Origin: Nitrospirota bacterium
GTDB taxonomy: Bacteria; Nitrospirota; Thermodesulfovibrionia; UBA6902
NCBI GenBank assembly: GCA_016208905.1
Contig: JACQXG010000044.1
Span: 1 to 39,004 of the forward strand
Reading direction: 5' to 3'
DNA: 39,004 bases
The stretch's first letter is position 1. Each line of letters opens with the position of its first letter. The position numbers and the translations under genes were made by a program. The notes below the pieces were generated by a model. The model searched no databases. It saw nothing but the letters and a program-made list of their open reading frames with translations, and was not told the origin of the DNA. Of this stretch, positions 6,971 to 8,202 are shown piece by piece.

Positions 6971-7489
6971 ATGAAAACTTCCAGAAAACAAAAAACATTA
7001 AGACCTACTACAGGTAAAGTCAGAGAAGCCCTTTTCGATATTTTGCGGGGCAAAATAGAAAATACAAGATTTCTTGACTTATACGCCGGTACAGGCGCTG
7101 TTGGAATCAATGCCCTGAACGAAGGGGCCGCAGAAGTTATTTTTGTTGAGGAGAGCAAAAGAAACACTAAAAAAATAATCGAACTTACAATAAAAAACCG
7201 GGCTTCTGATAAAACTAAAATTATTAATAAAAAAGTGATGTCTTTCCTTCAATGGGCAGAATTACAGGAGATCATCTTTGATATAATATTTCTGGATCCG
7301 CCGTATCACACAGATGAAATAATGTATGCCCTGGCTGCAATCGGAAAATCACACATCATAAAACATGGCGGAATTGTCATTGCAGAACACTTTACAAAAA
7401 AACCGTTGCCTGACATGTTCGACAGACTGCATAAAATAAAAGATTATAACTACGGGGACTCGGTGCTGAGCTTTTATGAAGCTGCTTGA
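6971..7489 (+). CDS. rsmD: 16S rRNA (guanine-966 N2)-methyltransferase
   Basis: The 172-residue protein carries the SAM-binding motif FLDLYAGTGAVGINAL at about residues 32-47 and the catalytic LDPPYH near 112, preceded by RPTTGKVREALFDIL, which is diagnostic of RsmD. It methylates G966 of 16S rRNA during small-subunit assembly. Compared with typical RsmD the N-terminus is short by about 10-15 residues (the usual RIIxGxxKGRxL stretch is missing), and ATG 6971 has no clear ribosome site. It precedes coaD, a common rsmD-coaD pairing, but here the two are separated by a short mobile element. Confidence 0.92.
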   Translation: MKTSRKQKTLRPTTGKVREALFDILRGKIENTRFLDLYAGTGAVGINALNEGAAEVIFVEESKRNTKKIIELTIKNRASDKTKIINKKVMSFLQWAELQEIIFDIIFLDPPYHTDEIMYALAAIGKSHIIKHGGIVIAEHFTKKPLPDMFDRLHKIKDYNYGDSVLSFYEAA

Positions 7490-7532
7490 TTATTTCAAAA
7501 CCATAATTGATATAATTTGTATAATGAATGTC

Positions 7533-7657
7533 GTAACTACTCAGGTGGATAGTCTGTAGGTGTTTAGGTAGATAGGGGGGAATAACCATGCGAGATCACA
7601 CAAAACTCAAAGCAGCAGTCCTAACAGACTACAGTCTAAACCACCTGAGTAGTTACA
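7533..7657 (+). mobile_element. Short transposon-like element (MITE) with 16-bp terminal inverted repeats and 7-bp target repeats
   Basis: Perfect 16-bp inverted ends occur at 7533-7548 (GTAACTACTCAGGTGG) and 7641-7656 (its reverse complement), with imperfect pairing continuing inward (AGTCTGTAGG against CCTAACAGACT). The element is flanked by the direct repeat GAATGTC at 7526-7532 and 7658-7664, the mark of a target-site duplication. Inside is a good ribosome site (GGGGGG) and an ATG at 7588 opening MRDHTKLKA, which resembles the N-terminus of four-helix-bundle (23S rRNA intervening-sequence, S23-type) proteins. I infer an internally deleted derivative of a four-helix-bundle element that inserted between rsmD and coaD. 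As RNA the ends could form a long hairpin. Confidence 0.7.
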
Positions 7658-7695
7658 GAATGTCTGAGTTATTACTGAGAATGAAAGGGGTATAA
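7588..7695 (+). pseudogene. Truncated four-helix-bundle-like ORF in the MITE
   Basis: The 35-codon frame starts MRDHTKLKAAVLTD after a G-rich ribosome site, then runs through the right inverted repeat (YSLNHLSSYR) and out into the flank, ending ten bases before coaD. Only the first nine or so residues look like the four-helix-bundle family; the rest of the roughly 120-residue protein is absent. It could still be translated and couple to coaD, but no function is claimed. Confidence 0.4.
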
Positions 7696-7704
7696 TAAGC
7701 CATA

Positions 7705-8202
7705 ATGAAAAAGTCGCAGAATAAACTCGCCATATATCCAGGCACATTCGATCCTATTACCAACGGGCATATTGACCTGGTCAAAAGGACCCTCAAAATA
7801 TTTGACGAAATAATAATCGCCGTTGCCCCGAGTCAGAAGAAACAGCCGTTATTTACAGTAGATGAAAGGATTGCATTAATTAATCAATCTATAAAAAATC
7901 TCCGTGGAGCCAGGACAGACGCCTTTAACAAGCTTCTTGTTGAGTATGTAATAAGCAACAAAGGTATTGCGATCATCAGAGGGCTCCGGGCAGTCTCGGA
8001 TTTTGAATATGAACTTCAGATGGCCCTGATGAACAGGCGTCTTGATTCAAACATTGAAACAGTCTTTATGATGCCGAGTGAAGAGTATACATTCCTTTCA
8101 TCAACGGTAGTCAAAGAAGTTGTCTCCTTCGGGGGGTCTGTTAAAGGGCTTGTGCCGGAAGCAGTTGAAAAGGCCCTCAATAATAAATTTAAAAATAAAT
8201 GA
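7705..8202 (+). CDS. coaD: Phosphopantetheine adenylyltransferase
   Basis: The 165-residue protein is of normal length for CoaD and shows the nucleotidyltransferase signature YPGTFDPITNGHIDL (T19-x-G-H22), IIRGLRAVSDFEYELQMALMNR, and the end motif FLSSTVVKEV. It transfers AMP from ATP to 4'-phosphopantetheine, the fourth step of coenzyme A synthesis, in the cytoplasm. A weak AAAGGGG lies about 13 bases before ATG 7705; this leader belongs to DNA next to the inserted element, so the element may have changed coaD expression. An EamA transporter gene follows after 13 bp and is probably co-transcribed. Confidence 0.96.
   Translation: MKKSQNKLAIYPGTFDPITNGHIDLVKRTLKIFDEIIIAVAPSQKKQPLFTVDERIALINQSIKNLRGARTDAFNKLLVEYVISNKGIAIIRGLRAVSDFEYELQMALMNRRLDSNIETVFMMPSEEYTFLSSTVVKEVVSFGGSVKGLVPEAVEKALNNKFKNK

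Follow-up and report, generated by a model that had tools for sequence, protein, structure and literature searches.

The 124-bp segment at positions 7533–7656 of the window (the whole stretch of 39,004 nucleotides analysed here) lies between rsmD and coaD; it is a mobile element rather than a palindrome that arose by chance. It is very probably a non-autonomous MITE of the IS66 family derived from a passenger cassette with a four-helix-bundle gene; its movement in trans is inferred, without experiment. The original prediction had tied four-helix-bundle genes to a DNA-level mobile element, and this tie is supported by the copies of the element, by an empty site and by full-length versions. IS66-type MITEs and passenger cassettes are known kinds of element; their combination, with a four-helix-bundle passenger, was not found described.

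The element and its insertion site

Perfect 16-bp inverted ends had been predicted and are present, with correct coordinates, at 7533–7548 and 7641–7656. The direct repeat GAATGTC predicted to flank them is likewise present, at 7526–7532 and 7658–7664, but its length of 7 bp does not stand: because the family duplicates exactly 8 bp abutting GTAAC...GTTAC, the repeat is better counted as 8 bp, TGAATGTC at 7525–7532 and AGAATGTC at 7657–7664, with 7 of the 8 bases equal. The internal ribosome site (AGGGGGG) and the ATG at 7588 opening MRDHTKLKA were also correctly recognized; the frame from this ATG has 35 codons, exits the element and stops at 7693–7695. Within the window the next-best match to the outer 14 bp of the ends has 3 mismatches. 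The features are as follows.

6971–7489, + strand: rsmD-like 16S rRNA methyltransferase gene, intact upstream neighbour (function read from sequence only)
7525–7532, no strand: left target-site duplication TGAATGTC, 8 bp, 7/8 equal to the right copy; single GAATGTC in the L304 empty site
7533–7656, + strand: very probable IS66-type MITE, 124 bp, derived by internal deletion from a four-helix-bundle gene cassette of ~443 bp
7533–7548, + strand: left terminal inverted repeat GTAACTACTCAGGTGG, its outer 14 bp being the IS66-type end
7545–7579, + strand: left inner array of 7–8-nt units ending in TAG (GTGGATAG TCTGTAG GTGTTTAG GTAGATAG)
7574–7580, + strand: Shine-Dalgarno-like AGGGGGG, in a position shared with the full-length L140 element
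7588–7614, + strand: remnant of the four-helix-bundle gene start, ATG and MRDHTKLKA (from the L140 alignment and the PF05635 match of the full gene)
7614–7615, no strand: deletion junction, where the window copy lacks 319 bp present in the full-length version
7615–7646, + strand: remnant of the last codons of the gene, overlapping the right inner array (the left array inverted)
7641–7656, − strand: right terminal inverted repeat
7657–7664, no strand: right target-site duplication AGAATGTC
7705–8202, + strand: coaD, intact downstream neighbour (named from its sequence)

The host assembly (2.19 Mb in 107 contigs, 86% complete) contains about 16 copies at unrelated loci, 74–98% identical to the window copy, and many more exist elsewhere, so the finding of a single copy, which would have refuted the prediction, is ruled out. 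Nearly all ends in the host assembly pair into short elements, and perfect 8-bp duplications (ATTTAATC, ATAATATC, TTAAATCT) flank a number of them. In 28 of 101 non-redundant elements with paired ends the duplication is perfect and exactly 8 bp long, compared with 0.03 expected from mispaired left and right flanks; in 40, at least 7 of 8 bases are duplicated (0.35 expected). One of the 101 has a duplication at 7 bp and none at 9 bp. A+T makes up 78% of the duplicated bases. Of 231 genomes of the class, 18 contain the exact 14-mer, with a maximum of 64 occurrences in a single genome; the reversed control pattern gave five matches in all among those listed. When a public genome collection was scanned for one end with its adjoining array, at least 113 stretches were found; the taxa represented among those listed are Nitrospirae, Desulfobacterales, other deltaproteobacteria, Elusimicrobia, Brocadiaceae, Methylomirabilis, Armatimonadetes, Lentisphaerae, Omnitrophota, Nitrospinota and Calditrichota. 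In IMG/VR a search with the full-length protein confirmed nothing, and the end pattern was found in one contig.

An empty site with a single GAATGTC, as expected under the original prediction, is found in a genome of the same family (L304), which has the same rsmD–coaD spacer ('tgtataatGAATGTCaaag'). The L304 spacer reads ctgtataatGAATGTCaaagtgaatgataaaag, and its window counterpart is tttgtataatGAATGTC and aGAATGTCtgagttatt on the two sides of the element. The insert is also missing from the rsmD–coaD spacer of a same-genus genome (L278). None of the four same-genus genomes contains the exact 14-bp end, and the family is therefore probably a recent arrival in the host lineage. Separately, another genome of the same family (L282, G020) has a different element independently inserted in the same spacer at ~1297–1429; it is flanked on each side by AAACCATG, has ends of the same kind and contains inner arrays of the GGCACAAAG type.

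Folded as RNA, the window element reaches −46.3 kcal/mol (z = −5.5), which none of 200 shuffles equalled. Rfam gave no match in the window, where no rRNA is detected at gathering thresholds. The element was also considered as a 23S rRNA intervening sequence and rejected as such, since it sits between rsmD and coaD in a window without rRNA.

The probable parent cassette and the IS66-type ends

The original prediction held that MRDHTKLKA recalls the start of S23 four-helix-bundle proteins and implied that full-length versions would be found with a complete gene between the same ends. Both expectations are borne out. Complete open reading frames lie between these ends in L140 (Brocadiaceae; 443 bp, intact PF05635 gene, 106.9 bits, E 7.5e-31) and L231 (Desulfobulbaceae; 466 bp, intact PF05635 gene, 103.1 bits, E 1.2e-29), both scored against a curated PF05635 cut-off of 33.8 bits, and L055, from the same order as the host, has a complete gene with worn ends. 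MRDHTKLKA aligns with the start of the L140 gene, and phmmer matches the protein of the full-length element to the solved chain 2gsc. Aligned to L140, the window copy shows one 319-bp gap, and of the gene it retains the ribosome-site region, nine codons (MRDHTKLKA) and the final codons, which overlap the right array. The retained start codon is thus a deletion remnant, not evidently a selected feature. Other host copies (L008, L010, L011) have different deletions, and no host copy contains an intact four-helix-bundle gene.

The proteins of L231 and L055 are 85–87% identical to that of L140, and the three form one clade. Their genes show dN/dS of 0.15–0.16, indicating that the protein is maintained by purifying selection in intact cassettes and therefore serves the cassette or the host, in a function that has not been shown. 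Few full-length cassettes are available in assembled form, and perfect duplications are lacking in all of them. Many contigs of SZUA-224 end inside full-length copies, which fits the expectation for a collapsed multi-copy repeat; its copies are cut by contig ends, and no perfect duplication was found around L140 or L231. Long end-to-end intervals in L208, L164 and L222 were rejected as transposons because they contain ordinary genes.

Judged from sequence comparison, the ends GTAACTACTCAGGT together with the 8-bp duplication point to the IS66 family. Published IS66 ends begin with GTAAGCG or GTAACCG, and insertions make 8-bp repeats (PMC11946415, PMC3281130, PMC12888890). In four other genomes, IS66 transposase genes are found immediately within these 14-bp ends. 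Identity to the ends beside these genes is 14/14 bp in L433/L436/L458, L424 and L448, and 13/14 and 14/14 in L254, where an intact IS66 transposase (E 5.4e-43) follows a DruA-domain open reading frame between GCAACTACTCAGGT and GTAACTACTCAGGT; the L254 assembly also carries mini-elements (L171, L186). In G097 the contigs break ~250 bp inside the end, which encloses the N-terminal DUF6444 part in L436 and L458 and the C-terminal DDE_Tnp_IS66 part in L433; C-terminal IS66 remnants lie inside the end in G005 (L424) and G335 (L448). L254 and L424 have no duplication. A further IS66 copy in an element-bearing genome (L262) has ends GTAACTATCCAGCT and the perfect duplication GAATATTT, and others in such genomes end in GTAACTATTCAGC and similar sequences. 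IS66 elements and mini-elements have only the outer 14 bp in common, the usual IS66 end being 20–30 bp long. No IS66 gene or other autonomous partner was found in the 86% complete host assembly, so no active partner is seen there. As a side observation, at L254 131–2436 (G210) the DruA-domain frame (PF14236, Druantia) lies immediately 5' of the IS66 transposase within shared terminal repeats, which suggests that DruA-like proteins can be transposon accessory genes.

The interiors enclosed by the 14-bp ends comprise at least five kinds of palindromic array: the TAG units of the window, GGCTGAAG (G097), GGTTCACGG (G141, G007), GGCACAAAGG (G008, G020) and CCCCCTTTGG...GGGGG (G142). Perfect 8-bp duplications also surround elements with other inner arrays (L413, L428, L439, L441, L446). 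In G142, three loci (L413, L445, L446) have an intergenic repeat of the CCCCCTTTGGAAAAGGGGG type inside GTAACTACTCAGGT ends with 8-bp duplications.

The proposed parent would have been about 443 bp long and arranged as IS66-type end, inverted array of 7–8-nt units, S23/23S-IVP gene (PF05635), inverted array and IS66-type end. IS66 transposases recognising GTAACTACTCAGGT would have moved such elements in trans by cutting an 8-bp staggered target, an inference made because the ends and the duplication length are identical. In the host lineage, cassettes would have lost internal DNA while keeping both ends, and could therefore still be moved; one of these landed in the rsmD–coaD spacer. The window copy is now an orphan, with no intact gene in host copies and no IS66 gene in the host assembly. 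With 124 bp, no transposase and about 16 host copies it meets the structural criteria for a MITE, and L140 and L231, as IS ends enclosing an intact passenger gene without transposase, meet the criterion for a mobile insertion cassette. These conclusions are limited by the use of metagenome-assembled genomes, the few assembled full-length cassettes, the lack of a host IS66 and the absence of experiment.

Four-helix-bundle genes between inverted arrays

The expectation that four-helix-bundle genes would lie within the same inverted ends is met by L140, L231 and L055; most others lack IS66-type ends. The host's own four strong PF05635 genes were checked for these ends and none has them, and each lies between inverted short-unit arrays (GGCACAAAG, GTTGAAAG, GGGTTAAAG, TTAAAATAGC). 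Of 107 PF05635 genes from the phylum, 65% have an inverted match scoring at least 16 between their upstream and downstream flanks, as against 1% among 209 control open reading frames; the median is 18 versus 10 with the downstream flanks of other loci (p = 5e-46). The threshold of 16 was picked after seeing the data, and the rank test is independent of it. Inverted arrays also surround 10 of 10 plasmid-borne PF05635 genes examined (annotated plasmids of Cyanobacteria, Gemmatimonadota and Azospirillum). The commonest unit length is 7, followed by 8.

Protein similarity predicts array similarity (Mantel r 0.235, with none of 2000 permutations as high) in a test between different families from which DNA-similar flanks were removed. 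Both this test and the enrichment draw on a single phylum and ten plasmid loci, and the permutation p-values take no account of how the loci are related. Where similar pairs occupy different loci (L315/L337, 441 bp at 93.7%; L316/L330), they have only the gene and arrays in common, and array-gene-array therefore behaves as a travelling cassette. As a whole, four-helix-bundle genes appear to form a general class of mobile array-gene-array cassettes, of which some are IS66-ended, and this general pattern is more surprising than the specific MITE. Binding of each protein to its own array is only a hypothesis, as co-inheritance in one cassette would give the same correlation. Going further, we offer tentatively, and with less than even confidence, the proposal that an S23/23S-IVP gene is generally the only gene in a mobile cassette of ~430 bp with inverted arrays of ~7-nt units at its borders. 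The encoded protein would recognise its own cassette's array and aid the cassette's spread or its tolerance inside operons; 23S rRNA intervening sequences would be members, and IS66-ended families would have arisen when IS66 ends enclosed such cassettes.

Two further observations concern the sites of these genes. Inverted heptamer arrays accompany the four-helix-bundle genes of L464, L469 and L470, which are placed between CRISPR-cas genes and run in the direction of the operon, twice at cas6/cas4 (Pseudanabaena and Anabaena, with different arrays) and once at cas10/cmr3. In two genomes (L120, L130), dissimilar four-helix-bundle genes with different arrays occupy apparently the same site after a gene ending LYWLVLNEAP, which looks like repeated use of one site or cassette turnover.

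Alternative explanations and known systems

The occurrence of inverted arrays around four-helix-bundle genes without IS66 ends would also suit a reading in which the protein, and not IS66, moves an autonomous array-gene-array cassette of which the IS66-like ends are a part, as would the near-identical cassettes L315 and L337, which share gene and arrays but not flanks, and the tracking of protein similarity by array type. We consider this reading improbable, since gene-less host copies still have perfect 8-bp duplications, elements with the same ends, other arrays and no such gene are nevertheless flanked by 8-bp duplications (L413, L428, L439, L441, L446), and IS66 elements themselves carry the same ends. 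A four-helix-bundle protein could still act in trans from another locus, but in this family it is the DNA ends that decide.

Still less probable is movement as RNA, in the manner of a 23S rRNA intervening sequence or a retroelement, with incidental DNA ends. The termini are fixed as GTAAC and the duplication is fixed at 8 bp; fixed termini and a target duplication of fixed length are hallmarks of DDE transposases. The copies, moreover, lie at protein-gene loci and not in rRNA, although gene family and size are the same as in the Coxiella intervening sequence (428 nt, tandem heptamers before the open reading frame; PMC4990558). That an ordinary transcribed hairpin (a terminator, REP-like sequence or structured RNA) between rsmD and coaD merely resembles a transposon is hardly credible: the strong fold (z −5.5) agrees with it, but the window has no Rfam match, the copies are dispersed at unrelated loci, and the empty site and 8-bp duplications refute it as the main explanation. 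The hairpin may act secondarily as a terminator.

Movement by IS66 of a four-helix-bundle passenger cassette, the preferred explanation, bears on the 23S rRNA intervening sequences and the S23 protein, both described in the literature as of unclear origin and mobility, with 'remnants of a transposition event' being only a hypothesis (PMC4990558). The finding supplies DNA-level evidence for S23-type genes in transposable cassettes, specifying the ends, the length of the duplication, an empty site and a transposase family as candidate, and a concrete lead on how four-helix-bundle genes spread. Heptamer arrays that track protein similarity suggest a specific partner relation, and inverted heptamer arrays are a possible source of the short intergenic repeats common in environmental genomes. 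In the open-access literature searched, which covered repeats or MITEs at four-helix-bundle genes, MITEs of IS66 and heptamer repeats of cyanobacteria, no description of the association was found, and an earlier description is not excluded.

Like IS66 insertion sequences and IS66-derived MITEs, the element has ends starting with GTAA, an 8-bp duplication and 14-bp ends also found around IS66 genes; unlike them, it has no transposase inside, and its interior comes from a four-helix-bundle cassette and not from simple deletion of an IS66. IS66 is known to carry passengers, as in ISPa75 with fosZ (PMC12888890). The full-length cassette resembles mobile insertion cassettes (MIC) and such passenger-carrying IS66 elements (tIS66) in combining IS ends with a passenger gene, and differs in that the passenger is an S23/IVP protein gene with no transposase beside it, a case not found in the open literature searched. 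Compared with the 23S rRNA intervening sequences of Leptospira and Coxiella, the window element lies outside rRNA and has DNA transposon ends and a target duplication, and RNA excision is not indicated. They are nonetheless alike in protein family, in size (428 versus 443 bp) and in complementary ends, and the Coxiella sequence also has short tandem heptamers before its S23 open reading frame; these GACAGAT units (PMC4990558) fit the array-gene-array pattern.
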